45,037 nt of DNA from positions 1 through 45,037 of the forward strand of contig JADFJB010000020.1 in assembly GCA_022566355.1 (NCBI GenBank), written 5' to 3'. This document shows, piece by piece, positions 1,644-41,581 of the stretch; within the stretch, counting starts at the first letter, position 1, and each line of letters starts with the position of its first letter. Source of the stretch: a candidate division KSB1 bacterium (lineage in GTDB: Bacteria > Zhuqueibacterota > JdFR-76 > DREG01). The notes under the pieces were generated by a model. It was not told where the DNA came from. It did not search any database and was given only the letters and a program-made list of their open reading frames with translations. A program made the translations under genes and the position numbers.

Positions 1644-2573
1644 ATGGAAAAAATAGTTACGATATGCGAAATGGCCCCGCGCGATGGCATGCAAGTATTA
1701 AATCGTAATGGGCAAATTCCTATAGCGAAACGAATCGAGCTAATTAAAATACTGCAAAGAGCTTCTTTAAAATACATAGAAGTTGGCTCTTTTGTTAATC
1801 AGAAGATCATACCGGCCATGAAGGATACAAGCGAGCTAATGAAGCAGGTTAATAGTTACAATGGCCAATTAGCTGCGCTAGTCCCGAATATCAAGTATTT
1901 CCATGAGTTTGAAAAAGCCCCAAACCTGGACACAGTTGCATTGTTTCTTTCTGCTTCAGAGTATTATTCTCTAAAGAACACAAAGATGACTATAGAACAA
2001 GCCATTAATAATGCAGAAGAGGTGGTTGACATTGCAACTAAAAAAGGCTATCGTTTACGAGCTCATTTATCCGGTGCATTTAGGGATCTAACCCAAGAGA
2101 ACCGGCCAACCAAAGAGGAAGAAGTTGCCGAAATATGTTCAAAGCTTCGTCACTTTGATCCTGAACTAACTATAGCTCTGGCAGATACAGATGGCCGCGC
2201 TAAAGAAGATGACATCGAAAGAGTGCTAAAATATGTAATTAACACCTTTGGCTCAGCAGGAATTGCAGTTCATTTACATAACAGAAATGGAGATGGTCTT
2301 AAGAAAGTCCGTGTAGCTTTTGATGCCGGAGTTAACACATTTGATTCAGCAATTGGAGGAATTGGTGGTAATCAGAAAGTTCTAACAGAAGCAGTCGGAA
2401 ACGTGGCTACAGAAGAAATCGTAAACATGTTTGAAACAAATGGTGTCAAAACGGGTATCGATCAAAACCTACTGCTAGAAGCTGGAAAACTAGTAATTGA
2501 AATGACAGAATTAACAGGAGATCCATTGCCGCCCAGTAAACTTCTAAAAAGAAAATTAAAAGAAAAATTCTAG
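1644..2573 (+). CDS. HMG-CoA lyase-like DRE-TIM metallolyase
   Basis: This 309-residue protein matches the hydroxymethylglutaryl-CoA lyase branch of the DRE-TIM (HMGL-like, PF00682) family, which cleaves or forms C-C bonds next to an acyl-CoA or keto acid. The N-terminal APRDG motif supplies the catalytic Arg13 and metal ligand Asp14. The HLH motif supplies His210 and His212, and Asn253 in VGNVATE matches the last metal ligand. The GGLGGCP loop of true HMG-CoA lyases reads GGIGGNQ here, so Asn243 replaces the mobile-loop cysteine. Length is normal. It is the only plus-strand gene in the window and follows a consensus promoter by about 165 bases; no strong ribosome binding site is visible. The fold and metal site are secure, but the HMG-CoA lyase activity is doubtful. 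Confidence 0.8.
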   Translation: MEKIVTICEMAPRDGMQVLNRNGQIPIAKRIELIKILQRASLKYIEVGSFVNQKIIPAMKDTSELMKQVNSYNGQLAALVPNIKYFHEFEKAPNLDTVALFLSASEYYSLKNTKMTIEQAINNAEEVVDIATKKGYRLRAHLSGAFRDLTQENRPTKEEEVAEICSKLRHFDPELTIALADTDGRAKEDDIERVLKYVINTFGSAGIAVHLHNRNGDGLKKVRVAFDAGVNTFDSAIGGIGGNQKVLTEAVGNVATEEIVNMFETNGVKTGIDQNLLLEAGKLVIEMTELTGDPLPPSKLLKRKLKEKF

Positions 2574-12441: not shown

Positions 12442-12479
12442 TCACGTCTCACGTTTGCCGTCTGCCGTTTCACGTTTTA
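12427..12479. repeat. GTGAAACGGCAAACG-type short tandem repeat
   Basis: Read on the minus strand this is a series of imperfect units of GTGAAACGGC(A/G)(A/G)ACG. It covers the 3' end of the SpoIIE gene at 12442, encoding its tail KRETADGKRET. A similar block lies directly after the stop of another SpoIIE gene at 16191-16225. Confidence 0.65.
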
Positions 12480-13617
12480 TTTTCAAAACCACGAACGTCA
12501 CATCATCATCCTGGGGGCGGCCATTGGCCCATTTGATGCCTGTTTTAACCAGGTGGTCAATAATCTCCTTCGGTGATTTCCCCCCTACATTTTTAAATGC
12601 GGCATACGCATTTGGATAATCCAGCATTTTTTCCTTATCATTCATCAATTCCGGAAAACCGTCGCTCATGAGTAGAATCGTATCTCCAGGTTTCAATTTT
12701 ACCGTTTCTTGCCGGTAAGGAAATCCTTTCATGGCGCCCAACGGCATGCCGTCAATATTCAATTCTTCGAGTTTTTTGCTGGCATTGCGATAGATCAAAA
12801 CGGGCGGAATTCCAGCAGAAGATAATTTTAGGATTCCATTACTGAATTTAAGCATTGCCAAACACATGGATAATAATGGCAATTTCATCGATTTGATGGA
12901 TGTGTTCATTTCTGCAAATGTGGATAAGATATCAGGATTCTTAGCCAAAGCGCTAAACAAAGTTTTGGCAGCCGTAACCATGGTACCGGCTTTCAAGCCA
13001 TGTCCGGTGGCATCCCCAACCACGACTGTTAAAGTGCCATCATCACTTGTATGAAAATCATAATAATCACCGCCGACTTCTGTAGCGGTTTTCATGTAAA
13101 CAGCGATTTCAAGGCCGGGCAATTTAGGAACGTCTTTCGGCAGCATCGAAAGCTGCAGCTGTCGTGCCTCTTCTAATTCCCGGGCTTTGCGCTGGTTTTC
13201 TTTTTCCAGTTCAGCCTTGGCTGCCGCCAATTGTGTGAAGTCTTCATAACGTGCATAGGCTACGGCAAAGGCATCGGCAAGGGGCGCCTGGATGAGGTTA
13301 ATTTCATCGTCCGCCAGCGGTGTGGCGCTGCCGACATAGAGCATACCCTGGGTAAAAGGCACGAACTGCAACGCGAGCCTCTCGGGCGCTTCCTCACCGG
13401 CCTGGTACTGTTTCGGACTATCAATCTGCGATAGGATCGTCTGCGTCCACGCTATGAATTGCTCCCGGTCCCATTCTTCCCGAAAAACCTTTCTCTGCCG
13501 CCAGTACTGCACAGCTTGCTCAACCAGGGGCGTACTGCCAAATTTCAGATGCAGCGCGGCGAGGGATTCTCCGGACGGGGTAGAGAGATAAAAAAGGGCA
13601 TGCTCCGCTGGCCTCAT
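12442..13617 (-). CDS. SpoIIE-type phosphatase, C-terminal piece of broken modular sensor
   Basis: The 391-residue frame contains the end of a GAF-like sensor module (to about residue 130), a coiled coil (AKAELEKENQRKARELEEA) and a complete PP2C/SpoIIE phosphatase domain with EVGGDYYDF, VGDATGHG, ILLMSDGFPE and PQDDDVTF. The phosphatase is closely similar to that at 7810. The N-terminal MRPAEH is not a natural start: the module begins upstream in two other frames, so this is the 3' part of a gene that runs from 16073. The tail KRETADGKRET is encoded by a short DNA repeat and is probably dispensable. The domain could still be active if translated on its own. Function is probably to activate a STAS antagonist. 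Confidence 0.8.
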   Translation of the reverse strand: MRPAEHALFYLSTPSGESLAALHLKFGSTPLVEQAVQYWRQRKVFREEWDREQFIAWTQTILSQIDSPKQYQAGEEAPERLALQFVPFTQGMLYVGSATPLADDEINLIQAPLADAFAVAYARYEDFTQLAAAKAELEKENQRKARELEEARQLQLSMLPKDVPKLPGLEIAVYMKTATEVGGDYYDFHTSDDGTLTVVVGDATGHGLKAGTMVTAAKTLFSALAKNPDILSTFAEMNTSIKSMKLPLLSMCLAMLKFSNGILKLSSAGIPPVLIYRNASKKLEELNIDGMPLGAMKGFPYRQETVKLKPGDTILLMSDGFPELMNDKEKMLDYPNAYAAFKNVGGKSPKEIIDHLVKTGIKWANGRPQDDDVTFVVLKIKRETADGKRET

Positions 13618-13667
13618 CGATAATTAAAACCCCGCAGCGGATAAATGGCACACTGAGGACGTTTAGT

Positions 13668-15116
13668 TCACGCCAGATGAGCGGGGGTGATGCGTTGCAG
13701 GTCGTCGGCGGTTCGCATCGTCGCGATCTCCGCCCGTACGCGATCTACGGAGGCTTGCTGTTCGGCTTCCCGTGCCCGCGTTTCGGCTTCCTTTAAATCA
13801 AGGTACCGCCGGTAGGTCAATCCCAGCACCGACGTAAATTTTCGGAAGATGCGAAGTTCTTCTTCCACGAATTCCTTTTCAGCCCAAGTATAAAGGGCTC
13901 CTTCCGGAAAGTAGAAAAAATACCCATACTGGATATTGATACTTTGCCAATCCGGAATGTCAATATGAGGTCTTACAAGTTCATAATATTTTTTTAAGGA
14001 ATTGCCTTTCAGTACAGGATGATATTCCTTCTGCACCTTCCAATATTCGAATACGCTTTCCAATACGTAGTGGCCCTTCAACTTTACTGTGCCGACAAGT
14101 TCCAAGGCATGATCCTCTTTGGTGGCGCTGGTGGTTAATAGCTCGACGACCTGAGTTTCTCCGTCGATCAGACCGACGCCGCAACGCATCGGTGTGATGT
14201 GCAGGGTCCGCAATTCTTGAAAAACGACACTGACAGTTGTGGCCAGATCTTCAGAACTATGCATAGCCATCGCCTTGGCTCGCACACGCTCAAGAGCAGC
14301 TTCGATCTGTGCTTCGCGGGCTTGTGCCTCGGCTTTTTGAAGGTCGAGGAAGCGCGTGTATGTTTGCTCGAATACCTGTGCAAATCGCTTGATTATGCCA
14401 TTCTCATCAGGGGTATAGGGTACTACCTTGTAATTCCAAATAGTCAGAGAAGTATCTTTTGAAAGGACAGTAGACCTGGCTATTCCTTTTGCGGCAGCAA
14501 TATACGCTTTTCGTTTCTTAGGCACTGTAAATTCCGCATGTGTATAAAAGTGGACAAAAAAGCTGTTCTTTTCTTCAAAAGTCATGGTATCAGTCAGCAG
14601 TGCTTCTCCATTGTGAAGAGCCGTCTCATATCGGGTAAAAAATGGATGGTTAAAGTATGGTAAATGCACCCGCCTATCATATCGCTGGCTGGTAGCGGCT
14701 GTCCACATATAATGGTCTTTGGAGTCTTTTAAATGCACGTTGATGTTACTTGCATCTATGTCGAGATTCAGGGATTCTAATTGTTCGAAGACGACCCTGA
14801 TAACTTCTTGTAGTTCTTCACTTTGATGCATGGCCATTGTGCACGCCCGAACCCTTTCGAGCGCTGCTTCGATCTGTGCTTCACGCGCCTGGGCTTCGGC
14901 TTTTTGAAGGTCGAGAAAGCGCGTGTAGGTCTGCTCGAAGACCTTAGCGAAGCGTGCGAGAACATCGAAGTCGTCCTCGGCTAAAGGCTCATACGTAATC
15001 GTGTTCATAATGCCGTGGCTGTAGGAAGCACAGTTCATAACCACTCTGTCTGGGGCGCTTTCTCCGGCAGGATACCGCCATCCATACTGCACGATGTGCG
15101 TCACGAAATCCTTCAT
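13668..15116 (-). CDS. Middle piece of broken modular sensor: GAF-like modules
   Basis: This 482-residue frame holds tandem sensor modules. Each begins with a coiled-coil signature such as REAQIEAALERVRAKAMAMH, continues with a GAF-like region of about 140 residues (RCGVGLID in one) and ends with a helix like FEQTYTRFLDLQKAEAQA. Modules start near 14868, 14301 and 13745, spaced 555-567 bases. The frame begins within a module: the preceding 15 codons are in frame with the upstream piece, from which only a TAG at 15162-15164 separates it. At the other end, after DDLQRITP, the correct continuation (LIWRELNVLSVPFIRCGV) is in another frame, so a one-base insertion is likely in the G5 run at 13683-13687. 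Not a complete gene on its own. Confidence 0.75.
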   Translation of the reverse strand: MKDFVTHIVQYGWRYPAGESAPDRVVMNCASYSHGIMNTITYEPLAEDDFDVLARFAKVFEQTYTRFLDLQKAEAQAREAQIEAALERVRACTMAMHQSEELQEVIRVVFEQLESLNLDIDASNINVHLKDSKDHYMWTAATSQRYDRRVHLPYFNHPFFTRYETALHNGEALLTDTMTFEEKNSFFVHFYTHAEFTVPKKRKAYIAAAKGIARSTVLSKDTSLTIWNYKVVPYTPDENGIIKRFAQVFEQTYTRFLDLQKAEAQAREAQIEAALERVRAKAMAMHSSEDLATTVSVVFQELRTLHITPMRCGVGLIDGETQVVELLTTSATKEDHALELVGTVKLKGHYVLESVFEYWKVQKEYHPVLKGNSLKKYYELVRPHIDIPDWQSINIQYGYFFYFPEGALYTWAEKEFVEEELRIFRKFTSVLGLTYRRYLDLKEAETRAREAEQQASVDRVRAEIATMRTADDLQRITPAHLA

Positions 15117-15161
15117 GGCCTGCTCTTCAAAGAAAACGGAGAAGCGATCTTCGTTTGCGAG

Positions 15162-16073
15162 CTAACGTTCTGAGAACTCACGTATTTTGTCGTTCTCCAG
15201 CATAGGGACCGTAAAACCATGTACACCAGGCTGGTCACCAGTGGAGGAAGCCCAAATTGAGAACGTCTCTTCATCCTGATCGATTACGGTAATCACAATA
15301 CGGCGTAGCGAAGGGATCTCCAGCCTAGTAAATTGCTCGAAAACCACTTCGGCTACGCGGGTGAGTTCATCGGATGTGTGCATGGCCATGGCGCGGGCGC
15401 GGACGCGTTCAAGGGCAGCTTCGATCTGGGCCTCGTGGGCCCGCTCCTCGGCTTGCTTCAGGTCCAGGTAGCGCCGGTAGGTCAAGGCAAAGACCGATGC
15501 AAATCTTTTGAATATCCGGATCGCTTCTTCGGTTATTGGATCATCAGAAAAAAAGAAGAGCAAGCCCTCTCGAAAACTGAACGTAGCTAAAGACTGTCGT
15601 TTAGGAATCTTGTCCGGCACAATGTTGGGATAGTCAGGGGCAGCGTCAAGGGCGGCGAAATAATTCTTCACGTCCTTGCCAACCAAATCGCGTGTGTAGA
15701 ATGACTGCTGTGTTTTCCAGGCGTCGAACGCGCCTTCCAGCATTGGATGAATCGTCATGTCCACTCGGCCTATGATCCGAATATCATCTTCATCAGCGCT
15801 TGCAGTTGCAGTCCAGACATCCATGTGTTTGGTTTCATCGAGAATGCCGACTCCGCAGCGGAGCGTGACGATTCCCAGTCTCTCGAGTTCCCTAAATACG
15901 ATTGCCGTAGCATCTGAGATGTCGTCGCTGTTGTGCATGGACATCGCCTTTGACCGAACACGTTCGAGTGCAGCTTCGATCTGTGCCTCACGTTCCAGTT
16001 TCTCGATTTTTTGACGGGCTAAAGCCAGCTCTTTTTCTTGGCTCTGCTGTGTTTTGGAGGATGGTTTATTCAT
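15162..16073 (-). CDS. N-terminal piece of broken modular sensor
   Basis: This 303-residue frame carries the true N terminus of a modular cytoplasmic sensor: a charged, glutamine-rich start (MNKPSSKTQQSQEKE), a coiled coil, then two repeats of the module with REAQIEAALERVRSKAMSMH and HEAQIEAALERVRARAMAMH. The first GAF-like domain contains RCGVGILDE. No membrane segment or signal peptide is present. It ends at TAG inside the second module (after REFSER), but the same frame continues with LANEDRFSVFFEEQAMKDF into the next piece, so a single C-to-T change from CAG would explain the stop. The DNA here is richer in G and C than its neighbours. Together with the two downstream pieces it would encode about 1,200 residues ending in a SpoIIE phosphatase. 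Confidence 0.75.
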   Translation of the reverse strand: MNKPSSKTQQSQEKELALARQKIEKLEREAQIEAALERVRSKAMSMHNSDDISDATAIVFRELERLGIVTLRCGVGILDETKHMDVWTATASADEDDIRIIGRVDMTIHPMLEGAFDAWKTQQSFYTRDLVGKDVKNYFAALDAAPDYPNIVPDKIPKRQSLATFSFREGLLFFFSDDPITEEAIRIFKRFASVFALTYRRYLDLKQAEERAHEAQIEAALERVRARAMAMHTSDELTRVAEVVFEQFTRLEIPSLRRIVITVIDQDEETFSIWASSTGDQPGVHGFTVPMLENDKIREFSER

Positions 16074-16190
16074 TAGCTTCCTGAATTATTCAGGTTAGGT
16101 ATTTTATAAGCGTCAAGCATGTAGTCTAAAAAGCTTCACTTTGTAACTTTATTACTTTACTTTGTGCTTCTATGACTCGTGGTTTTCTTC

Positions 16191-16225
16191 GTTTCACGTT
16201 TGCCGTTTGCCGTTTCACGTTTTAC
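16191..16225. repeat. GTGAAACGGCAAACG-type short tandem repeat
   Basis: On the minus strand this reads as units of CGTGAAACGGCAAACGGC, directly after the stop codon of the SpoIIE gene at 16222. It matches the block at 12427-12479, which also sits at the 3' end of a SpoIIE gene. Confidence 0.65.
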
Positions 16226-17889
16226 TTATTTCGTTTCAAAAACAAGGCCGTAATATCATCACTCTTCGGCTGGCCGCCGACAAATTCCCGGACATCATTC
16301 ATCAAATCATGAATAAAGAGGTCAGCATTTTTATGTGCATTATTCACAAAATATTCTTCCAATGTTTCATCTTCATAAAAGTTCTCTTCATCAACTGTTG
16401 CTTCGGGTATGCCATCTGTAAACAACAGCAAGCTTTCACCAGGTTCGATAGTTATGGATTCAGTCGTAAATTCGATTCCTGAATCAAACATTCCGATGCA
16501 GATTCCACCCGCTTCTAACTTGTGAAGAGAATTATCACTTTTTAGCAATAGAGCTGGATTGTGTCCTGCGTTTAGAACCTCCAGTTTGCCTTGTCCGGGT
16601 GAAAGCACTGCCATAAAAAATGTGATGTATTTATCAATCGTTGAAGCATTGAATATTGCATGATTTAATTTATGGGCTAATTTTGGCAATGAGAGATTGC
16701 CCTCCAGGTACGCATAAAGAGAGGCTTGCAAGCTGCTTACAAGCAATGAAGCCGGAACACCTTTACCACTCACATCAGCGATGACTAGTGCAAATCGACC
16801 ATCTTGAAGATGAATACAATCATAGTAATCTCCACCTACATCTTTCGAAGGAATATTGATTCCAAATAAATCATAGCCAGGAATTTTATGAAGTTCTTTG
16901 GGAATTATTGCCTGTTGAATCGCCCCGGCAACTGCAATCTCTTGCTCGATCTTTTGTTTTTCTAACAATTGCTTTAATAAATAATCATTTTCCAAAGCAG
17001 CGTTTACCTGCCTGACAATGCCTTCCAAAATCATTGAATCGGTATCATCGAATGAAACAACTCCAGATCTACTTTCTTTTTCAAACAGTGTAAAACAATA
17101 GGTTTTATCCTGGTAATCAAACGAATGGGTGATCCTGCTTTCTTCTAATGAGGGTTCTTCATTGTTAAACTCGCCTGGAAAATAAATATGGTTTACAGTC
17201 TCTTCGGCAGTAATTCTCAGGTGGGCTTTTGAGGCATTTGTAAGCGAAGCGACGCTTTGCAGCGATAGTTCAAATAGTGAAAGTTGGTTACCAACCTGAT
17301 CGCTATCATGACCACTTTCAAGAAAGGCATTAAACTCCTGAACCGCATTTTGTTTCGCCATGCTTGCAATTTCGATTCCGGTATCAATTAAGCTATTTAT
17401 TTGCAGGACTCTGGTATTCAATGAAAATATTAGATCTTTCTCTCTTTTGAGTTGATCGAATGCTTGATACGCATTGTTTAACAGGTTAATCAAAAATTGT
17501 AAAGTGAGTTTATCCAAATCCGAAAAGCCTGAATTGTCGAGTTTATGTCCAATAAGAATATGAAAAATTGACCCGGTTCCATTCGGAAGGATTACAAAAA
17601 TATGGTTCGATTCAGGATAGTCATAAGAAATACTGAATTCTTCTTTTGAATGATGTGTAACTTTGTTTTCAATCGTCTTAGAGTGATTGGAAAATAAGGA
17701 TTGCCATTCATCTGAATTCGAAGAGCGATAAAAAACACTCACTCCTGATACCAAAAGATTTCTCTTTATTAATTGGGCATATTTATTGGCAAAATCTTTT
17801 AACGAAGTTGAGGTTAAGAGAGAATTGAATCCTTCCTGGAAAGAAGCGATATTGAGTGAGAAATGTTCCAGGAGATTAGAATGGCTCAT
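16222..17889 (-). CDS. RsbU/RsbP-like SpoIIE phosphatase with GAF-like sensor
   Basis: This intact 555-residue cytoplasmic protein has two sensor regions without membrane segments (about 1-150 and 190-310, the latter GAF-like). A coiled coil follows (LLEKQKIEQEIAVAGAIQQA) and then a PP2C/SpoIIE serine phosphatase domain from about 330 to the end. The metal-binding motifs DVGGDYYD, IADVSGKGVPA, LLLFTDGIPEA and PKSDDITA are complete. Such RsbU-type enzymes dephosphorylate a STAS anti-anti-sigma protein. The next genes upstream encode exactly such a STAS protein and an RsbW-like kinase on the same strand, about 85 bases away, so they probably work together. No disruption is visible in this gene, unlike its neighbours. 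Confidence 0.9.
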   Translation of the reverse strand: MSHSNLLEHFSLNIASFQEGFNSLLTSTSLKDFANKYAQLIKRNLLVSGVSVFYRSSNSDEWQSLFSNHSKTIENKVTHHSKEEFSISYDYPESNHIFVILPNGTGSIFHILIGHKLDNSGFSDLDKLTLQFLINLLNNAYQAFDQLKREKDLIFSLNTRVLQINSLIDTGIEIASMAKQNAVQEFNAFLESGHDSDQVGNQLSLFELSLQSVASLTNASKAHLRITAEETVNHIYFPGEFNNEEPSLEESRITHSFDYQDKTYCFTLFEKESRSGVVSFDDTDSMILEGIVRQVNAALENDYLLKQLLEKQKIEQEIAVAGAIQQAIIPKELHKIPGYDLFGINIPSKDVGGDYYDCIHLQDGRFALVIADVSGKGVPASLLVSSLQASLYAYLEGNLSLPKLAHKLNHAIFNASTIDKYITFFMAVLSPGQGKLEVLNAGHNPALLLKSDNSLHKLEAGGICIGMFDSGIEFTTESITIEPGESLLLFTDGIPEATVDEENFYEDETLEEYFVNNAHKNADLFIHDLMNDVREFVGGQPKSDDITALFLKRNK

Positions 17890-17973
17890 ATTGACAATTT
17901 TGTAATTGAAATCTTTATTCCGTAATTTCAGTTAATTTAGAAATCGTGGCTTGTAAGAGAAATTTGACGAATT

Positions 17974-18310
17974 CTATAGCATGGCCGCCTCTAAGGAATC
18001 AGCCTTCTTTGCATATTGAAATAACCCCATAATTGTGAAGGATTTTTCAATGGGTGGATCCAGGTTAATAAAGGTTAGTGTACCTCTTTACATCATTGAG
18101 TTTTTCAATCACTTCAATCAGTACCGATATCCCTATCGAGTTCACAACCTTGGAATCTTTTAAATCCAGGATCACTTTTGTTGTACCTTCATCGATATAC
18201 TTAAAGCACTCTTTAGCAATATTTTCTCCACCATGTTGATTGATATAACCTGATGTAGTTACTACCAAATGATCTTCTTCCATTCTGGATGTAAATGTTA
18301 GCTGTGTCAT
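17974..18310 (-). CDS. STAS anti-anti-sigma (RsbV-like) protein, frameshifted C terminus
   Basis: This is a STAS-domain antagonist that binds and releases an anti-sigma kinase depending on phosphorylation of a serine. The site lies in VVNSIGISVLIE (serines 62 and 66 counted from a GTG at 18322). I start it at the ATG at 18310, four bases after GGAGGG. The open frame stops at 18065 after EKLNDVKRYTNLY, too short for the family. One extra base near 18085-18089 explains this: the alternative frame continues GTLTFINLDPPIEKSFTIMG and LFQYAKKADSLEAAML to a stop at 17974, giving the normal length of about 112 residues. Gene order (kinase, antagonist, phosphatase) supports a partner-switching role. 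Confidence 0.82.
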
Positions 18311-18326
18311 GCAACCCTCCACATAT

Positions 18327-18746
18327 TTAAATCAAATTCTTGATCATAGTGATTTTTGTTCCATTGGGACCAGATTCGATGATAAAGTCGTCTGACATGG
18401 ATTTCATCAGTTTAAGCCCCCACCCACGTTTATTGGCGGAATGGATTTTCTCGTCTATATTTGGATCTTCAACCTTGTCAGGTTCGAACCCGGTGCCATA
18501 GTCTTCAACAAAAATGACTAATTTCTCTTTAGTCATTGTAAACTCAACTCGAACTTCCTGGCTATCTTCACCAGCATGCCCGAGCGCATTAATAATGGCT
18601 TCGTTTACCAGTATTCTTGCTTCACCGATTTTCTCATCCTGAATACCGAGATGTTCTGCGAGGTGTTCCATGCCTTTTATGGCTACAACCTCAACATCTG
18701 GAATTTGCGGAAGAATTACTGTTAGTTTTATAGATTCATTTTTCAT
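18327..18746 (-). CDS. RsbW-like anti-sigma regulatory factor, serine kinase
   Basis: This 139-residue protein is a stand-alone GHKL (HATPase_c) domain of the RsbW/SpoIIAB type. The N box is EARILVNEAIINALGHA (Glu42 to His57), the G1 box EDYGTGFE around Asp82, and the G2 box GWGLKLM at 108-114. These kinases bind ATP, sequester a sigma factor or other partner, and phosphorylate a STAS antagonist. The STAS gene follows 16 bases downstream and a SpoIIE phosphatase after that. The start has GAGAGGA upstream. No sigma factor gene is present in the window, so the controlled target is unknown. A perfect 16-base palindrome lies about 100 bases upstream of the start. Confidence 0.9.
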   Translation of the reverse strand: MKNESIKLTVILPQIPDVEVVAIKGMEHLAEHLGIQDEKIGEARILVNEAIINALGHAGEDSQEVRVEFTMTKEKLVIFVEDYGTGFEPDKVEDPNIDEKIHSANKRGWGLKLMKSMSDDFIIESGPNGTKITMIKNLI

Positions 18747-24674: not shown

Positions 24675-26090
24675 CTACGGAAAAATCCCCATCTCCATGT
24701 ACACCAATGCAATCTTATCAATCGCACAAATGAATGTTGCCATACGGAGATCTATCTCATTATTATGATCTTCTTTTATCCGTCTAATTTCAGCATAGGC
24801 ATTTATCATGGTTTCTTCCAAACCGGAATTGACCAAATCAGCTTCACCAGCACCTTGTGCCAGCGATTTCAATTCATCATCTGAAAAATATTTGCCGGAA
24901 ACTCTTTCCATAGCCTTTAATAATTGAAGTTGTGTTTTTTCCTCGAAACGTTTTTCCATTCGGCCGAATCTTACATGGGATAAGTTTTTGAGCCATTCAA
25001 AATAGGAAACCGTTACACCGCCTGCATTCAAAAAAGTATCGGGTATAATCATAACGTTTCTTTCTTTTAGCATTTCATGAGCTTCACTTGTAATGGGTCC
25101 ATTTGCAGCTTCCGCAATAATTTTTGCCTTTATTTTAGATGCATTCTCTTCTGTAATCTGATTTTCCAGAGCAGCTGGGACCAGAATATCACATTCCATT
25201 TCCAGAACTTTAATCGAAGGTATAATATTTTTAGCGCCCGGGAAATCCAATAACGAACCGGTTTCTTTGCGCAGTTGAAACACACTTTCCACATCAAGCC
25301 CATCCGCATTAAAAATGGCTCCTTCATATTCAGCGATTCCAGTGATAGTTGCACCACCTTCTTGCAGGAATTTCGCAGCATGATAGCCGACATTCCCCAA
25401 CCCTTGCACAATAACTCGTTTGTCTCCCAACCCGGGTTTAAGTCCTAAATACGTCATGTCTTCTACATGCTCACAAGCTTCCCGGATGCCAAAATAGGCC
25501 CCTCGCCCTGTTGCTTCAATACGGCCATGAATCCCGCCCTGAGCAAGAGGCTTACCTGTAACGCAAGCTAGAGAATCTAATCTACCGCCAGTTAAGGCGC
25601 TATAAGTATCAGCAATCCATGCCATTTCTTTCGGTCCCGTGCCATAATCCGGTGCAGGCACATCAATTCCGGCGCCAATAAAATTTTTGCGAACTAATTC
25701 ATACACATACCTTCTGGTGATCCTTTCAATTTCATTTTCCGAATAAAACCTGCGATCAATTTTAATTCCACCTTTTGCACCGCCAAACGGAACATCAACA
25801 ATCGCGCATTTATAAGTCATGAGCGCTGCTAAGGCTTTAACCTCATCTTCATTCACTTCAATACTATATCGAATTCCTCCCTTAACCGGTAATTTGTGTT
25901 GGCTATGCTCAGCCCGCCATGCGTGGATTGTTTCAATGGAGCCATCATCACGCTTTAATGGAAAAGAAATATGGTATATACCGTTGCACATTTTTATTTG
26001 TTTTAGTAATCCAGGTGCATGTTTTGTTAAAACAGCTGCCTTATCAAAGTTCCGGTTCACTTGTGCGAAAAAACTTATTTTATGCGCCAT
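24675..26090 (-). CDS. Glutamate dehydrogenase (Glu/Leu/Phe/Val family)
   Basis: This NAD(P)-dependent amino acid dehydrogenase interconverts glutamate and 2-oxoglutarate plus ammonia. I start it at the ATG at 26090 (471 residues), with GGAGA and AGGA just upstream. A longer frame from a TTG at 26135 would overlap the PTS IIB stop. The dimer/substrate region contains [10 protein letters not shown] and PFGGAKGGI (Lys106 in this numbering), then [20 protein letters not shown]. The Rossmann motif is QGLGNVG around 230-235. The protein is somewhat longer than the usual 420 residues because of a C-terminal extension. It is the last gene before the terminator, 41 bases after a PTS IIB gene, linking nitrogen assimilation with PTS regulation by position. 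Confidence 0.9.
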
Positions 26091-26131
26091 AGTCCTGATT
26101 CTCCAATTGTATTTTCTAGTGATTGATTGGT

Positions 26132-26623
26132 TCAATGAAGTTTCTGATGAATCAATTTCATCACATCAATTTTTTTTGCATTAGGCGTATCTTGTCCCTC
26201 AATAACAATCCCACGATTCGCCAATTTATCAAGGCAATGGATGTCATTGTTATCCAAAAAAATGTAATCGTTTAGTTCCTTTTTTTGGGATTGGTAATGA
26301 AGTCCACCGATATTTAAGGTATTCATCGGCACATTTAGTTCGTAGAGTTTTAGAGCGTCTTTAGGATTTTTAAGTAATAAAATACATTTTTCTTTATTAA
26401 AATTTTCATTTTTCACATAATTGAGTAGTTCATCAGTGCTAAAAACATTGATTGAAACATCTGAATCTGAAAATGAAGATTCGTACAAATCTTTATCAAA
26501 TTGATTGGAGGCAATTTCATCATTGCATAGGACGATACGATCTGGATGAAGATAATTTGCCCAACCCACCACAACTTGTCCGTGGATCATACGATCATCA
26601 ACGCGAATTAGTAGAAATGACAT
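26132..26623 (-). CDS. PTS mannose-family IIB component
   Basis: This 163-residue protein is a mannose/sorbose-family PTS EIIB (PF03830). The phosphorylation site is His14 in [15 protein letters not shown], the family's hallmark. Length is normal. In a transporter, IIB receives phosphate from IIA and gives it to the sugar bound by IIC/IID. Here IIA lies 3 bases upstream, but no IIC or IID gene follows; instead glutamate dehydrogenase follows. It may serve a transporter encoded elsewhere or have only a regulatory role. Confidence 0.9.
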
Positions 26624-26626
26624 GTT

Positions 26627-27031
26627 TCAAGAACCTTCGACACTACAATTGAATATTTCGATACCTCGTTTCCCGGCATCCACCAAACTAGCAGTAAGCT
26701 CCTTAAAATTTAATGATTCCCTCTTTGTTAAGAATGAAAGCAACATGGGTAAGTTAATCCCGGATATAATAGCAATCCGATCATGATCTCTGGTTAGCTT
26801 ACAAGCAACATTCCAAGTACTGCCACCCTTTAAATCCACGGCAATTACAGCACCATACTTTAAAATATCTGAGTTTTCAAAAATGTTTTTTATTTTTTTG
26901 GTTATTTCATTCGACGAGAGATGAAGGGTTGGAATACAGTAAACATCAGGTTGATCGCCTAACATGGTTGTGGCTGCTTTAAAAAATGAACTACATAGGT
27001 CACCATGGGTGAGTAATATCAACGATACCAT
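26627..27031 (-). CDS. PTS mannose-family IIA component
   Basis: This 134-residue protein is a mannose-family EIIA (PF03610). The phosphorylated histidine is His9 in ILLTHGDLC, and VDLKGGSTWNVA provides the conserved acidic site near residue 66. The tail INLPMLLSFLTKRES is also typical. It would take phosphate from HPr and pass it to the IIB encoded 3 bases downstream. HPr kinase lies just upstream (33-base gap). The arrangement hpf-hprK-IIA-IIB resembles regulatory PTS clusters known from Deltaproteobacteria and other non-enteric bacteria. HPr and enzyme I are not in the window. Confidence 0.88.
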   Translation of the reverse strand: MVSLILLTHGDLCSSFFKAATTMLGDQPDVYCIPTLHLSSNEITKKIKNIFENSDILKYGAVIAVDLKGGSTWNVACKLTRDHDRIAIISGINLPMLLSFLTKRESLNFKELTASLVDAGKRGIEIFNCSVEGS

Positions 27032-27064
27032 AATTATTAAGTTTTATCGATTGGAATTTCATTA

Positions 27065-28051
27065 TTATTCCAAGTCATGTTCAAGATATTCTTTTCGTTT
27101 CTTGCCGTAAATCGTTTTACCTTGTGCACTCATTTTTTTCAATAATCGTTTATTGAATTCTTTGGCTGGATGAATGCCATATATTTTTAGCAGCGAATTC
27201 ATTGCAATTGTTTCGATGATAACCGTTATATTCTTGCCAGGGAAAATTGGCAACCGAACCTGCGGTATTTTTATATCCAGAATTTCTGTAAAAGCATCTG
27301 TCAATCCAATTCTTTCATAGTTTTCTTTGGCATCCCATTCTTCCAGAAATACTTCAACTTCAACTCTTTTTTGCAATCTTATAGAACGAATTCCGAACAT
27401 AGTTTTTACATCCAGGATTCCAAGTCCCCTGACTTCAATATGATGTTCTAATATTTCGTTAGCGGTTCCGATTAATATATCATCGCCTTTTCGTTTAATT
27501 GCAATCAAATCATCTGCAACTAAGCGATGGCCTCTTTCTATCAAATCTAATGCGATTTCACTTTTCCCTATTCCGCTTCGACCTGATAATAACACACCAA
27601 TACCATAAACATCTACTAGGGTTCCATGGATCTGGGTTCTCGGAGCAAATTCATCTTCAAGAAAATTCCCGATAAACCGCACAAAAGTTGTAGTGGTTAC
27701 AGGGGTTCGAAAAACAGGAATATTGTGATTATTACATAGATTGATGAGACCTTTGAAGGATTTATTTTGATTGGTTATAACAAGACAAGGAATTTCAAAT
27801 TCGGTAAGTCTATTAAACGCGACTTCTCTTTCTTTTTCAGTTAAGGAATCCAAATATGCAATTTCAGTGTTGCCAAGAACTTGAATCCTTTCGTAAGAAA
27901 AAATATCCACAAACCCGGTTAATGCTAAGCCGGGTCTGTGGATTTCAAGTTGGTTTATTCTTTTTTCTAAGCCACTTTCACCCGAAAGTAGAGTGAGCTT
28001 TAACGCGCGTTTGCTTTTATCATAGAATTCATTAACTGAAATTGAAGACAT
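27065..28051 (-). CDS. hprK: HPr kinase/phosphorylase
   Basis: This 328-residue protein is the bifunctional HPr(Ser) kinase/phosphorylase, which adds or removes phosphate on a serine of HPr and so couples PTS activity to metabolic state. The N-terminal domain spans about 1-130. The catalytic domain has the P-loop GRSGIGKS (157-164), the acidic pair at 180-181 (VADDL) and the family signature VRGLGILDVKTMFG near residue 208. Length is normal. It starts two bases after the stop of hpf (TAGATATG) and is followed by PTS IIA and IIB, so these four genes form a unit. Confidence 0.95.
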   Translation of the reverse strand: MSSISVNEFYDKSKRALKLTLLSGESGLEKRINQLEIHRPGLALTGFVDIFSYERIQVLGNTEIAYLDSLTEKEREVAFNRLTEFEIPCLVITNQNKSFKGLINLCNNHNIPVFRTPVTTTTFVRFIGNFLEDEFAPRTQIHGTLVDVYGIGVLLSGRSGIGKSEIALDLIERGHRLVADDLIAIKRKGDDILIGTANEILEHHIEVRGLGILDVKTMFGIRSIRLQKRVEVEVFLEEWDAKENYERIGLTDAFTEILDIKIPQVRLPIFPGKNITVIIETIAMNSLLKIYGIHPAKEFNKRLLKKMSAQGKTIYGKKRKEYLEHDLE

Positions 28052-36050: not shown

Positions 36051-36980
36051 CTATGTGTATACCTGGGTTAACCAATTATACCGATCTTCGTACTCGCCCT
36101 TAAACAAACCAAAAAATCTCTCTTGTAATTTTTGGGTCATAGGACCTCGTTTACCTTCTCCAATCTGGATTTTATCAATAGATCTCACAGGAGTAATTTC
36201 GACTGCTGTACCCGAAAAGAAAACTTCATCAGCAACGTATAGCAAGGATCTCGGAAGCATTTGTTTTTGGACTTCAATTCCGAACTCCTCAGCCAAATCA
36301 AAGACACAATCTCGTGTAATTCCAGGTAAAATCGATGCTGCTAATGGAGGGGTATATAGAATGCCTCCATAGACGATGAATACATTCGCACCACTTCCTT
36401 CACTAACATATCCTTCCTGATTCAGCGCTATTCCTTCGCTATAACCATTTACATCTGCTTCCATTCTAATCAATTGACCATTCATATAATTGCCGCCGGC
36501 TTTTGCCATACTAGGCATTGTATTAGCTGGCAAACGGCTCCAGGATGACACACAAACATCCACACCCTCTGTAATGGCTTCATCTCCCAGGTATCCACCC
36601 CAATCCCATGCTGAAATGGCAACATTTATGGGACATCCTTTTGGCAGTACTCCCAAATTTCCATAACCACGAAATACCACCGGCCGAATGTAAGCTTCTT
36701 TAAACTTATTCATTTTGATAACATCAATACATCCCTGGTAAATTTCATCATAGGTAAATGGAATATCTATACGATAGATCTTTGCAGAATTAAACAAACG
36801 TTTAATGTGTTTGTCCAATCTAAAGATTGCCGTTCCAACACTGCCGGTATTATAACAGCGAATCCCTTCAAATACACTGGAGCCATAATGAATAACATGA
36901 GCATTTACATGAACGGTAGCATCTTTCCAATCTACCATTTCCCCATCATACCAAATTTTTGAACTCTCGTTAAAGCCCAT
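36051..36980 (-). CDS. ilvE: Branched-chain amino acid aminotransferase
   Basis: This 309-residue class IV PLP-dependent aminotransferase interconverts leucine, isoleucine and valine with their 2-oxo acids. The PLP lysine is Lys160 (PSMAKAGGNYMN). HYGSSVFEGIRCY near residue 31, EGSGANVF and FFSGTAVEITPV are typical of bacterial IlvE. GGAGG lies six bases before the ATG. It follows the acyl-CoA genes in the same direction (123-base gap), so it may provide 2-oxo acids to that catabolic set, although it also serves biosynthesis. Confidence 0.95.
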   Translation of the reverse strand: MGFNESSKIWYDGEMVDWKDATVHVNAHVIHYGSSVFEGIRCYNTGSVGTAIFRLDKHIKRLFNSAKIYRIDIPFTYDEIYQGCIDVIKMNKFKEAYIRPVVFRGYGNLGVLPKGCPINVAISAWDWGGYLGDEAITEGVDVCVSSWSRLPANTMPSMAKAGGNYMNGQLIRMEADVNGYSEGIALNQEGYVSEGSGANVFIVYGGILYTPPLAASILPGITRDCVFDLAEEFGIEVQKQMLPRSLLYVADEVFFSGTAVEITPVRSIDKIQIGEGKRGPMTQKLQERFFGLFKGEYEDRYNWLTQVYT

Positions 36981-37103
36981 TTAAATCCTCCGAATAAAAA
37001 TTATTATTCCGAATGTTAATTAAAAGTTAACTAATCTGCCCAGAACTTACAAGAATATTCAAAGAACAATGGAATTAATCGAAATAATTATAATTAGAAC
37101 CAA

Positions 37104-38246
37104 CTATTCACTTAAGAGTTTCCTGGCAATAACGAGTTTTTGGATTTCGGTGGTTCCTTCATATAATTCTGTTATTTTCGCATCCCGAAAATAGCGTTCC
37201 ACAGGAAAATCCTTAAGATAACCATATCCCCCTAAGATTTGGACAGCTTCATCGGATGCCCACACAGCTACTTGTGAAGCTTTCAATTTTGCCATTGCTG
37301 CTGCTTGAACATAGTCTTTCCCGATTTGTCTTAAAAATGCTGCATGGTAAAGCATCATGCGGGCGCATTCTATTTCTGTTGCCATATCAGCCAACTTTGA
37401 CTGGATAGCTGAAAACTCACTCAATGTTTTACCAAACTGCTTGCGTTCCTTAGCATAATTCAAAGCAACTTCCAAAGAAGCCCGGGCAATCCCTACCGCT
37501 TGAGCAGCAACTCCCATTCGCCCCCCATCAAGTACACTAAGTGCTATACTTAAACCTTTACCTTCTGGTCCAATTAGATTATCCAATGGAATTCGACAAT
37601 CTTCGAAAGTCAATTCGCAAGTATCGGAACTACGGATACCCATTTTCCTTTCTTTCTTAGAAACGCGAAATCCCGGCGTCCCTTTTTCCACAATGAAAGC
37701 TGAAATACCTTTATAACCCAGGTTACGATCTAAGGTAGCAAAAACGATAATGACATCCGCACTTGCACCGTTTGTAGTGAAATTTTTGGTGCCATTCAAA
37801 ATATATCCATCACCTACTTTCTTTGCAGAGCAAATTAGGCTACCGGGGTCCGAACCGGCGCCTGCTTCAGATAGAGAAAATGCACCGAGCTGTCGACCAC
37901 CCGCCAGAGGCTTTAGATATTTTTCTTTTTGTTCTTCGCTGCCATATTTCAGGAAGACTTCACAGACCAATGAATTATTAACGGATACGATGACTGCTGA
38001 AGAAGCATCGACCTTTGCAATTTCTTCCAGCATAACGACATAGCTAACCGGATCCATGCCTGCTCCGTCATACTCTTCCGGCACCATAATCCCCATAAAT
38101 CCTAACTCGCCCATCTGTTTGATTTCTTCTTCAGGAAATCTTTCTTCTTCGTCTCTCTCATCAACGTTCTTGGCTAACACTTCTTGGGCGAACGATTTAG
38201 CTGTTTCGCGAACCATTTCTTGTTCTTCGCTTAATTCAAAATTCAT
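37104..38246 (-). CDS. Acyl-CoA dehydrogenase (short-chain type)
   Basis: This 380-residue FAD enzyme oxidises acyl-CoA to enoyl-CoA. The family signatures FSLSEAGAGSDPGS (FAD/substrate loop) and QILGGYGYLKDFPVERYFRD are complete. The catalytic base is Glu363 in LYEGTTEIQ, the position used by short- and medium-chain enzymes. The isovaleryl and long-chain type has Ala or Gly there. AAAGGAA precedes the ATG. It lies between the 3-hydroxyacyl-CoA dehydrogenase gene and ilvE. Electron transfer flavoprotein genes are not in the window. Confidence 0.93.
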   Translation of the reverse strand: MNFELSEEQEMVRETAKSFAQEVLAKNVDERDEEERFPEEEIKQMGELGFMGIMVPEEYDGAGMDPVSYVVMLEEIAKVDASSAVIVSVNNSLVCEVFLKYGSEEQKEKYLKPLAGGRQLGAFSLSEAGAGSDPGSLICSAKKVGDGYILNGTKNFTTNGASADVIIVFATLDRNLGYKGISAFIVEKGTPGFRVSKKERKMGIRSSDTCELTFEDCRIPLDNLIGPEGKGLSIALSVLDGGRMGVAAQAVGIARASLEVALNYAKERKQFGKTLSEFSAIQSKLADMATEIECARMMLYHAAFLRQIGKDYVQAAAMAKLKASQVAVWASDEAVQILGGYGYLKDFPVERYFRDAKITELYEGTTEIQKLVIARKLLSE

Positions 38247-38345
38247 AAAATCATTTCCTTTAAGTTTCTATGCGAAATTAAATTTGAAACTTATGCTAAC
38301 CTATTCAATGGTACTAAGTTAAGCTGTAAAGTCTATCGACAACAA

Positions 38346-39194
38346 TTAATAGTTATAAAACCCACGTCCACTTTTTTTACCCAAATATCCTGCCGTGACC
38401 ATTTTTTTCAATAATGGACAGGGTCGATATTTTGGATCTCCGAATCCTTCATAAAGGACATTCATTATATTTAAACAAACGTCCAAGCCAATAAAATCCG
38501 CTAACCTTAAAGGACCCATTGGATGGTTCATTCCCAATTTCATCACAGTATCGATTGACTCTTCGTTTGCAACACCTTCCATAAGACAATAAATTGCTTC
38601 GTTAATCATCGGCATGAGTACACGATTCGAAATAAAACCCGGATAATCATGAACCTCAACCGGCGTTTTACCAAGTTTTTTTGAAACTTCTATGATTGTA
38701 TTTAATGTATCGTCCGATGTTGCGAGTCCACGAATTACTTCAATCAATGTCATAACCGGGACAGGATTCATAAAATGCATACCAATCACATTTTCCGGTC
38801 GATTGGTCGCAGCCGCTAATTCCGTGATTGAAATCGATGATGTATTAGAAGCAATAATTGCTCCTTCTGTAGTGATTACATCAAGTTTTCTGAAAATATC
38901 GCATTTTAATCTCGCATTCTCAGGAACTGCTTCGATATAGAGAAAAGCATCTTTAACCTCGGCAAAATCGGTTGATGTAGAGACCCTCTTTAAAGTTTCC
39001 TTTTTATCTGTTTCGGATATCAATTCTTTTTTGATTTGTCGATCAAGATTTTTCTCAATTGCGTTTAGAGCACGAGCCAAAAATTCTTGTCTTATATCAA
39101 CTAAACTTACTTTGTAACCACGTTGGGCAAAAATATGAGTAATACCATTTCCCATTGTCCCCGCACCAATCACAACCACCCTATTTTCGTTCAT
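38346..39194 (-). CDS. 3-hydroxybutyryl-CoA dehydrogenase
   Basis: This 282-residue stand-alone 3-hydroxyacyl-CoA dehydrogenase oxidises 3-hydroxyacyl-CoA with NAD(P). The Rossmann motif VVIGAGTMGNGITH begins at residue 7. The catalytic region holds SNTSSISI and the histidine in GMHFMNPVPVM. The C-terminal domain has GFISNRVLMPMINEA and NHPMGPLRLADFIGLD. CAGGAG precedes the ATG at good spacing. It starts 26 bases after the thiolase gene ends, so the two form a unit. No enoyl-CoA hydratase domain is fused and none is encoded nearby. Confidence 0.94.
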   Translation of the reverse strand: MNENRVVVIGAGTMGNGITHIFAQRGYKVSLVDIRQEFLARALNAIEKNLDRQIKKELISETDKKETLKRVSTSTDFAEVKDAFLYIEAVPENARLKCDIFRKLDVITTEGAIIASNTSSISITELAAATNRPENVIGMHFMNPVPVMTLIEVIRGLATSDDTLNTIIEVSKKLGKTPVEVHDYPGFISNRVLMPMINEAIYCLMEGVANEESIDTVMKLGMNHPMGPLRLADFIGLDVCLNIMNVLYEGFGDPKYRPCPLLKKMVTAGYLGKKSGRGFYNY

Positions 39195-39220
39195 CGCAAC
39201 TCCTGCTTAATATATAGTTA

Positions 39221-40405
39221 TCAGCTCTCCACTGTTAAAGCTGCAGCTTCTCCACCACCTATACAAAGAGTCACTAAGCCCTTCTTCAAATTGGTACGCT
39301 TTAAAGCATAAATAAGAGTTGTTAAGATTCGAGCGCCACTTGCCCCGATTGGATGCCCTATAGCAACCGCGCCGCCATGAATGTTTATTTTATCCATCGG
39401 AATAGCTAATTCTCTCTGGGCTGCCAACAGTACCACAGAAAATGCTTCATTAATTTCAAATAAGTCTATTTCGTTTAGATCGAGATTAGATTTCTTTAAA
39501 ACTTTTTGAATTGCACCAATTGGCGCAGTCGTAAACCATTCCGGTTTATGTGCAAAAGATGCCTGGCCTTTGATCGTCACAAGTGGTTCGATGCCTAGTT
39601 CCTTGGCTTTATCTGCCGACATAACAACTATCGCAGCAGCACCATCATTGATCTTTGAGGCATTGGCAGCAGTCACTGTTCCATCTTCATCGAATGCAGG
39701 TCGTAAAGTTTTCATCTTATCAAAGTTAACTTTCTTCGGTTCCTCATCTTCGGAAACAGACAGGGGATCCCCTTTTCTCTGCGAGATTGAAACCGGAACA
39801 ATCTCATCTGTAAACCAGCCTGATTCTTGTGCCGCCAAAGCACGTTTATAACTCAACTCTGCAAATTCATCCTGATCCTGCCGCGTAATGGTTTTCTCTC
39901 GAGCACAAAGTTCAGCTGCATTTCCCATATGATAATTATTGTAAACATCCCACAAACCATCTTTAATCAAGCCATCAACTAATTGGCCGTGGCCCAGTCT
40001 ATAGCCTTGCCTGGCTTTTTCCAGATAATACGGAGCTTGACTCATGTTTTCCATACCGCCAGCCACAATAATATCTGCATCGCCAAGGAGAATCGCCTGA
40101 GTTGCCAACATAACTGCCTTTAATCCGGAACCACATACTTTATTGATGGTCATACATTCAACATTGGTTGGTAAACCAGCACCTAAGGCAGCTTGGCGTG
40201 CCGGGGCTTGGCCAAGCCCTGCGGGTAAAACACACCCCATAATCACTTCATCCACATCTGATGTATTTATATTCACACGTTTCAAAGCTTCTTCAATTAC
40301 AATTGAACCAAGTTTTGTAGCGGGTACTGTTGCCAATGCTCCATTGAAAGCACCCACCGCAGTCCTGCAAGCACTCACAATTACAGCTTCTTTATTGTTT
40401 ACCAT
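39221..40405 (-). CDS. Acetyl-CoA acetyltransferase (thiolase)
   Basis: This 394-residue thiolase cleaves 3-ketoacyl-CoA or condenses two acetyl-CoA. The acyl-carrying cysteine is Cys91 (NKVCGSGLKAV). The second site is His351 in AIGHPIGASG, and the catalytic acid is Cys381 in TLCIGGGEA. AGGAGG lies four bases before the ATG. The gene is 24 bases after the acyl-CoA dehydrogenase gene and 26 before the 3-hydroxyacyl-CoA dehydrogenase gene, consistent with a beta-oxidation-type operon. Substrate chain length is probably short. Confidence 0.95.
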   Translation of the reverse strand: MVNNKEAVIVSACRTAVGAFNGALATVPATKLGSIVIEEALKRVNINTSDVDEVIMGCVLPAGLGQAPARQAALGAGLPTNVECMTINKVCGSGLKAVMLATQAILLGDADIIVAGGMENMSQAPYYLEKARQGYRLGHGQLVDGLIKDGLWDVYNNYHMGNAAELCAREKTITRQDQDEFAELSYKRALAAQESGWFTDEIVPVSISQRKGDPLSVSEDEEPKKVNFDKMKTLRPAFDEDGTVTAANASKINDGAAAIVVMSADKAKELGIEPLVTIKGQASFAHKPEWFTTAPIGAIQKVLKKSNLDLNEIDLFEINEAFSVVLLAAQRELAIPMDKINIHGGAVAIGHPIGASGARILTTLIYALKRTNLKKGLVTLCIGGGEAAALTVES

Positions 40406-40429
40406 GGTTCCTCCTAATGGTCTATTTGG

Positions 40430-41581
40430 TTATTTCACTTCATCTAAAATATACTTAGCAATGACCAAACGCTGAACTTCAGAAGTCCCTTCGCCTATGG
40501 TGGTAAGCTTTGCATCGCGATAATAGCGTTCCACGGGGTAATCTTTTAGATACCCATAACCTCCATGAACCTGGATTGCTTGATTTGTCGTTCTCATTGC
40601 CACTTCCGAAGCGAAAAGCTTGGCCATAGCTGCATATTTCATAAATGCCTTTCCCCTATCTTTTAACCAGGCAGAATGATAGACCATAAGCCTGGCTGCG
40701 GCAATTTCAGTTGCCATATCGGATAACTTGAATCGAATAGGTTGAAAGTTTGAAATTGGCTTACCAAATTGCACCCTTTCACTGGCATATTTTCTGGCGC
40801 GATCGTAAGCAGCTTGTGCTATACCCAATGCCATAGCGCCAATACCTATTCTTCCACCATCTAAGATTTGCATAGCGATTCCAAAGCCCTCTTCCGGTTT
40901 ACCCAGCACGTTTTCTTCCTGAACTATGCAATCTTCGTAAATAATTTCTTGCGTATTTGAAGCGTTCACACCAAGTTTTCTTTCTTCTTTGCCAAGCTTG
41001 AATCCAGGTGACCCTGCTTCTACTATGAATGCAGTAATGCCTTTATGTTTTGCTACGGCTGAATCCGTCCTGGCAAAGGCTATGATGGTCTTAGCATGAC
41101 CGCCATTGGTAACGTACATCTTAGTGCCATTTAAATAATAATTGCCGTTTCTTTTAACGGCTGTCGTTTTTAATGCGGCTGCATCAGAACCTGCATCCGG
41201 TTCGGTAAGACTGAAAGCCCCAAGATTTCTACCCGAACAGAGGTCTGGTAAATATTTGTTCTTCTGTTCTTCAGTTCCCCAATTAAAAATTGGATAAGTA
41301 CCAAGAGATGAGTGGGCACAAAGGGTAAGCGCAGTGGAACCGCATGCTCCGGCAATTTGCTCTACTGCAAGGGCAAATGCCAGGGTATCCATTCCTGCCC
41401 CTTCGTACTCTTCCGGGAACGGAATCCCAAGCAAACCCAATTTACCCATTTTACTTAAGATTTCTTTTGGAAAACGTTTTTGTTCGTCCAGCTCTGATGC
41501 AATAGGCTCCAATTCTGAAGCTACAAAATCACGAACCAGGTCTTGCAGCATTTTATGTTCTTCGGATAATTCGAAATCCAT
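40430..41581 (-). CDS. Acyl-CoA dehydrogenase, second copy
   Basis: This 383-residue FAD-dependent acyl-CoA dehydrogenase is a paralogue of the one at 37104. FSLTEPDAGSDAAALKT and QVHGGYGYLKDYPVERYYRD are the family signatures. The catalytic base is Glu364 in TIGEGTSEVQRL, again the short-chain type position rather than that of isovaleryl-CoA dehydrogenase. GGAGA lies about six bases before the ATG. It follows the acyl-CoA carboxylase beta gene (89-base gap). Two paralogues in one operon suggest two different acyl substrates or successive steps. Confidence 0.93.
   Translation of the reverse strand: MDFELSEEHKMLQDLVRDFVASELEPIASELDEQKRFPKEILSKMGKLGLLGIPFPEEYEGAGMDTLAFALAVEQIAGACGSTALTLCAHSSLGTYPIFNWGTEEQKNKYLPDLCSGRNLGAFSLTEPDAGSDAAALKTTAVKRNGNYYLNGTKMYVTNGGHAKTIIAFARTDSAVAKHKGITAFIVEAGSPGFKLGKEERKLGVNASNTQEIIYEDCIVQEENVLGKPEEGFGIAMQILDGGRIGIGAMALGIAQAAYDRARKYASERVQFGKPISNFQPIRFKLSDMATEIAAARLMVYHSAWLKDRGKAFMKYAAMAKLFASEVAMRTTNQAIQVHGGYGYLKDYPVERYYRDAKLTTIGEGTSEVQRLVIAKYILDEVK

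Follow-up and report, generated by a model that had tools for sequence, protein, structure and literature searches.

A gene in the 45,037-nucleotide stretch of DNA analyzed here (the window, from a candidate division KSB1 bacterium) encodes a protein that has the domain, the fold and the metal site of HMG-CoA lyase, but in which the loop cysteine, the equivalent of human Tyr167 and a sufficient score with the curated lyase profile are missing. Because of these three absences, the window protein is not filed as a proven HMG-CoA lyase. We see an even chance that it is a metal-dependent DRE-TIM lyase which cleaves HMG-CoA or a close analogue in the last step of leucine-type degradation.

Gene, Domain and Fold

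1644–2573, + strand: gene for an HMG-CoA-lyase-like (DRE-TIM) acyl-CoA lyase of 309 amino acids, assigned by domain, sequence and fold matches

The reading frame starts with ATG and comprises 309 codons with no internal stops. The product scores 108.7 bits with the Pfam HMGL-like domain (PF00682; cut-off 29), but reaches only 215.7 bits with the curated HMG-CoA lyase profile NF004283 (NCBIfam), of which the cut-off is 246 bits; a related protein from the Acidobacteriota genome OFTM268 (see below) likewise remains below this value (235.1 bits). Scores with the curated profiles of DRE-TIM synthases (isopropylmalate, homocitrate and citramalate synthase) are far lower than required, the best being 55.6 against 413.55 bits. 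The solved chains nearest to the window protein by sequence are HMG-CoA lyases, and automated annotation would probably give it that name. In the window's genome, this gene is the sole HMG-CoA-lyase-like match.

The structure predicted with AlphaFold2 from 49 sequences has a mean pLDDT of 94.4, and its weakest part is the loop block of residues 241–250 (pLDDT 66). The model has the same TIM-barrel fold as human HMGCL (2cw6, 3mp3, 3mp5) and bacterial HMG-CoA lyases (1ydo, 1ydn, 2ftp), with Z scores of 41–43; the sequence identities of the window protein to the human and bacterial enzymes are 28–32%. Over the eight listed structures of HMG-CoA lyases, Z scores range from 39.8 to 43.2 (43.2 for 1ydo and 42.7 for human 2cw6), whereas the best synthase gives 30.9; a further structure comparison agrees. 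An Rfam scan of the window at gathering thresholds gave no match.

Conserved Metal Site and Altered Loop

Residues were mapped by alignment to human HMG-CoA lyase (2cw6), and a 69-row alignment was used for counts. The sites concerned are as follows.

1680–1685, + strand: Arg13-Asp14, equivalent to human Arg41 (catalytic) and Asp42 (metal ligand), kept (alignment)
1695–1700, + strand: Val18-Leu19, a two-residue insertion after Gln17, common to both Acidobacteriota proteins and absent in 62/62 Cys-type rows
1779–1781, + strand: Glu46, equivalent to human catalytic Glu72, kept (alignment)
2064–2066, + strand: His141, aligned with human catalytic Tyr167; both Acidobacteriota relatives have Tyr here (alignment)
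2271–2279, + strand: His210 and His212, metal ligands equivalent to human His233 and His235 (alignment)
2355–2375, + strand: loop GGIGGNQ, residues 238–244, with the codon of Asn243 (human Cys266) at 2370–2372
2400–2402, + strand: Asn253, metal ligand equivalent to human Asn275 (alignment)

Thus Arg41, Asp42, Glu72, His233, His235 and Asn275 of human 2cw6 all have their counterparts in the window protein. The initial annotation had listed Asp14, His210, His212 and Asn253 as kept metal ligands together with Arg13, and the human alignment confirms these residues and their numbers; its reading of the loop as GGIGGNQ, with Asn replacing the cysteine, is also correct, as Asn243 aligns with Cys266. 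Two changes had escaped it: His141 at the Tyr167 place, and the replacement of the loop Pro (human Pro267) by Gln-Lys. Relative to HMG-CoA lyases, the window protein has Asn for Cys266, (Gln)Lys for Pro267, His for Tyr167 and Tyr for Gly112, together with the two-residue insertion, and it lacks GCPYEG.

Cys occupies the Cys266 place in 62 of the 69 rows and Tyr the Tyr167 place in 47, and the latter place is therefore less strict than the cysteine. Six rows carry Asn, four of which (those besides the window and the OFTM268 locus L060) were retrieved by a pattern that requires Asn. A review names Arg41, Glu72, Tyr167 and Cys266 as the most critical residues of HMG-CoA lyase (PMC6941031); two of these four (Tyr167 and Cys266) are altered in the window protein.

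The codon of Asn243 is AAT in the window gene and AAC in two other genomes. Chance or a sequencing error was considered as the source of this residue and rejected, because Asn recurs, as AAC, in those two genomes, in proteins that are 49% identical to the window protein and share further changes with it.

Rarity of the Asn Loop

Relatives were also retrieved regardless of the loop residue. Among the 59 best-ranked loci (L002–L031 and L062–L090; more matches exist), Cys is present in 58, and the remaining one (L015) is a distant relative that has no loop and a gap at the cysteine place. In the window's phylum, a profile search revealed an HMG-CoA-lyase-like protein of at least 215 bits in 6 of 82 genomes, the next score being 65.5; five of these proteins exceed the curated cut-off and all five have Cys, whereas the window's own is below. 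At E 1e-10, a search with the window protein gave no hit in six genomes of its family and order, and no relative was found in viral contigs; 372 plasmid records match, each with <60% identity. A literature search at the title and abstract level found no work treating Asn in the HMG-CoA lyase loop.

Acidobacteriota Relatives and Phylogeny

A DNA pattern encoding H.H...G...[DE]....G.GGN was scanned with fixed spacing through one genome per species (84,980 species), so that relatives deviating at these positions would be missed. Thirteen stretches matched; five were HMG-CoA-lyase-like by BLAST, and three others gave weak BLAST matches and look like another aldolase-like family. The five are from two Acidobacteriota MAGs, Phytohabitans suffuscus (28% identity) and two Stenotrophomonas (27–28%). 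In the Acidobacteriota MAGs OFTM223 (L050) and OFTM268 (L056/L060), the full-length copies of the protein are 49% identical to the window protein over 302 residues, and each gene is the sole HMG-CoA-lyase-like match in its genome (G388 and G389). Between these two genes, dN is 0.064 and dS is 0.90 (dN/dS ~0.07); they are under purifying selection.

All three proteins have Asn in the loop and Lys in place of the Pro that follows. They also carry the insertion, which produces GMQVLNRN, and in them Glu47 is replaced by Arg, Gly112 by Tyr, Gly173 by Arg (GCPYEG being lost) and Ile206 by Asp. Of these features, the Asn, Lys and Tyr, both inserted residues, Arg at 21 and 147, and Asp at 183 are absent from all 62 Cys-type rows compared. 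Unlike the window protein, the two Acidobacteriota proteins have Tyr at the Tyr167 place and a loop shorter by one residue; also unlike the window gene, their genes adjoin a hydratase gene and lie near MCC-type genes.

A phylogeny including cysteine-less members, which the initial annotation had recommended, places the window protein in one clade with the two Acidobacteriota proteins (support 100/100; stem branch 1.87), which stands apart from the remaining Asn forms. Explaining Asn on this tree takes three changes; the bootstraps give the same number, as does an analysis with the loop residues masked in 64/65 rows. L015 was omitted from both trees, and the long-branched L007, L014 and L024 from the second. 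With its shared changes and its separate position, the clade is a small and rare subfamily that holds together well, and the loop Asn has probably arisen more than once. A single origin of all Asn forms was tried as an alternative and is not favored, given the three changes needed; constraining them to one clade gave a borderline p-AU of 0.045.

The Phytohabitans suffuscus (L051) and Stenotrophomonas (L053 and L057) proteins resemble the window protein in having Asn at the Cys266 place, but differ in their lower identity (27–28%), in keeping the following Pro and in branching elsewhere. In the Stenotrophomonas proteins (L053:2648–3856, + strand; L057:5825–7228, − strand), GLGGN is combined with Arg at the Tyr167 place, and their long branch lies close to the lyases of human and Brucella. 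The Asn-loop lyase-like gene of Phytohabitans suffuscus (L051:5606–7807, − strand) adjoins a gene which, named by eye, is CaiB-type CoA-transferase-like.

Genomic Context

On either side of the window gene lie opposite-strand genes, one of the beta-lactamase family and the other for a DUF6503 protein. Genes that might belong to the same pathway lie in a distant part of the window.

36051–41581, − strand: genes for a branched-chain aminotransferase (ilvE), two acyl-CoA dehydrogenases, a 3-hydroxybutyryl-CoA dehydrogenase-like protein and a thiolase, a possible pathway context
41671–43335, − strand: gene for an MCC-type acyl-CoA carboxyltransferase beta subunit adjoining recJ, which may provide a partner step although it is 39 kb away

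The best solved match of the window carboxyltransferase is 9tps, a named propionyl-CoA carboxylase (454 bits); the MCC beta chains 8j4z (mitochondrial) and 3u9r (P. aeruginosa type) give 449 and 428 bits, respectively. It also matches 4q0g, named as acetyl-/propionyl-CoA carboxylase AccD1, with 428 bits; scores are 338 bits with geranyl-CoA carboxylase and at most 274 bits with named propionyl-CoA carboxylases other than 9tps and 4q0g. Neither of the two acyl-CoA dehydrogenases in the window is identifiable as isovaleryl-CoA dehydrogenase (a solved-structure search was performed on one). Elsewhere in the genome, a second carboxyltransferase gene adjoins MeaB-like and mutase-like frames, and a biotin carboxylase gene adjoins a small biotin-carrier-like frame (these frames were named by eye).

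In each Acidobacteriota genome, an enoyl-CoA hydratase gene lies on one side of the lyase gene and, on the other, a gene for a carboxyltransferase that is 45% identical to that of the window. The interval between lyase and carboxyltransferase includes a small regulator-like frame in both genomes and further genes in one. This carboxyltransferase scores 504 bits with the P. aeruginosa MCC beta chain, 357 bits with geranyl-CoA carboxylase, and at most 286 bits with named propionyl-CoA carboxylases other than 9tps and AccD1 4q0g. As the two MAGs are related, their neighborhoods are in effect one case. At the Cys-type loci, a gene for a carboxylase subunit, a hydratase or an acyl-CoA dehydrogenase is present within ~1.5 kb in 35/59 (L015 counted).

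Genomes of the same order as the window's have recJ and the carboxyltransferase gene without any lyase gene. This weakens the link between MCC and the window lyase, and indicates that the carboxyltransferase does not depend on the lyase gene. At these loci (L125:7395–13978 in G002, L126, L127 and L097), recJ and the MCC-type carboxyltransferase gene are followed by an HMG-CoA-synthase-like gene and, where the contig permits, a thiolase-like gene and a small zinc-ribbon frame (DUF35-like, by eye); an enoyl-CoA hydratase-like frame is present in two of them. The window's genome has other genes at this position, and no HMG-CoA synthase gene.

Proposed Reaction and Alternatives

In the reaction that we propose, a 3-hydroxy-3-methylglutaryl-type CoA ester, supplied by an MCC-type carboxylase and then an enoyl-CoA hydratase, would be cleaved, yielding acetyl-CoA and a 3-oxoacid. 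The metal site (Asp14, His210, His212 and Asn253), together with Arg13 and Glu46, would provide for binding and the retro-Claisen step, and by this analogy the window protein would work like HMG-CoA lyase. In HMG-CoA lyases, proton transfer on the acetyl-CoA enolate is usually assigned to the loop cysteine. This step would have to be performed otherwise in the window protein, perhaps by Lys245 as the first candidate, or by His141 or water; Lys245 is kept in all three proteins of the clade, whereas His141 is Tyr in the Acidobacteriota proteins. The role proposed here resembles that of the M. tuberculosis (R)-HMG-CoA lyase Rv2498c, which, according to its description, ends leucine breakdown by cleaving HMG-CoA (PMC6689899).

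The initial annotation had suggested that the protein might act on another substrate. A lyase for a different 3-hydroxyacyl-CoA, such as a bulkier 3-substituted glutaryl-CoA (in terpenoid degradation) or a malate-type CoA ester, is possible though doubtful; in such an enzyme, the loop change, the insertion, Gly112Tyr and Ile206Asp would reshape the pocket. This suggestion has gained from the changes that the clade alone shows where the 62 Cys-type rows are conserved, from its long stem branch (1.87) and from the score below the curated cut-off (215.7 vs 246 bits), and the Cys-type relative 6nds from Acinetobacter baumannii is, by its title, solved with CoA and 3-methylmalate. It has lost ground on the side of gene context: the neighbors of the Acidobacteriota genes are of the MCC and hydratase type, no terpene-degradation genes are seen in the partly annotated loci of the relatives, and the Acidobacteriota carboxyltransferase is closer to MCC than to geranyl-CoA carboxylase (504 vs 357 bits). 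The location of the relatives near leucine-degradation-type genes and the sole lyase-like match per genome fit ordinary lyase action. More broadly, and with somewhat less than even confidence, we propose that the three proteins represent a new subfamily of DRE-TIM acyl-CoA lyases with a remade lid (Asn-Lys for Cys-Pro, inserted Val-Leu giving QVLNRN, and absence of GCPYEG), and with either a substrate other than HMG-CoA or a cysteine-free enolate protonation.

Action in the condensation direction, producing HMG-CoA or a related acyl-CoA, had been suggested as well and is now very improbable. The superfamily is shared with synthases, and genomes of the same order (G002, G004, G005 and G006) have an HMG-CoA synthase gene near the carboxyltransferase gene that is absent from the window's genome. 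HMG-CoA reductase is present in G002, G004 and G006, as well as in both Acidobacteriota genomes; the window's genome (98.5% complete) has no match to HMG-CoA synthase or HMG-CoA reductase, so that no mevalonate-type use of HMG-CoA is visible, which speaks against condensation, and synthesis of HMG-CoA for mevalonate by the window protein is unlikely. Moreover, every synthase profile listed is far under its cut-off, and the window loop is unlike the GERxGN loop of DRE-TIM synthases. It is likewise very improbable that loss of the catalytic cysteine and tyrosine has left the protein with little or no activity. Although the equivalents of Cys266 and Tyr167 are both altered, Arg, Glu and every metal ligand are retained, Asn is maintained in the 49%-identical relatives, the two Acidobacteriota genes show a dN/dS of ~0.07, and the fold is predicted with confidence (pLDDT 94.4).

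Whichever substrate the proposed lyase uses, natural relatives that are cysteine-less yet have the metal site, at three places on the tree, offer a direct test of the role of the cysteine. Should the Asn form prove to be a full HMG-CoA lyase, the cysteine would be dispensable in a suitable setting; otherwise, the clade would be a lyase for another substrate.

Other Genes in the Window

At 12442–18746, two genes for SpoIIE-type phosphatases, together with a small HATPase gene, resemble a partner-switch regulation set. Genes for a Glu/Leu/Phe/Val dehydrogenase, a PTS IIB sorbose-type subunit and an HPr kinase are clustered at 24675–28051.
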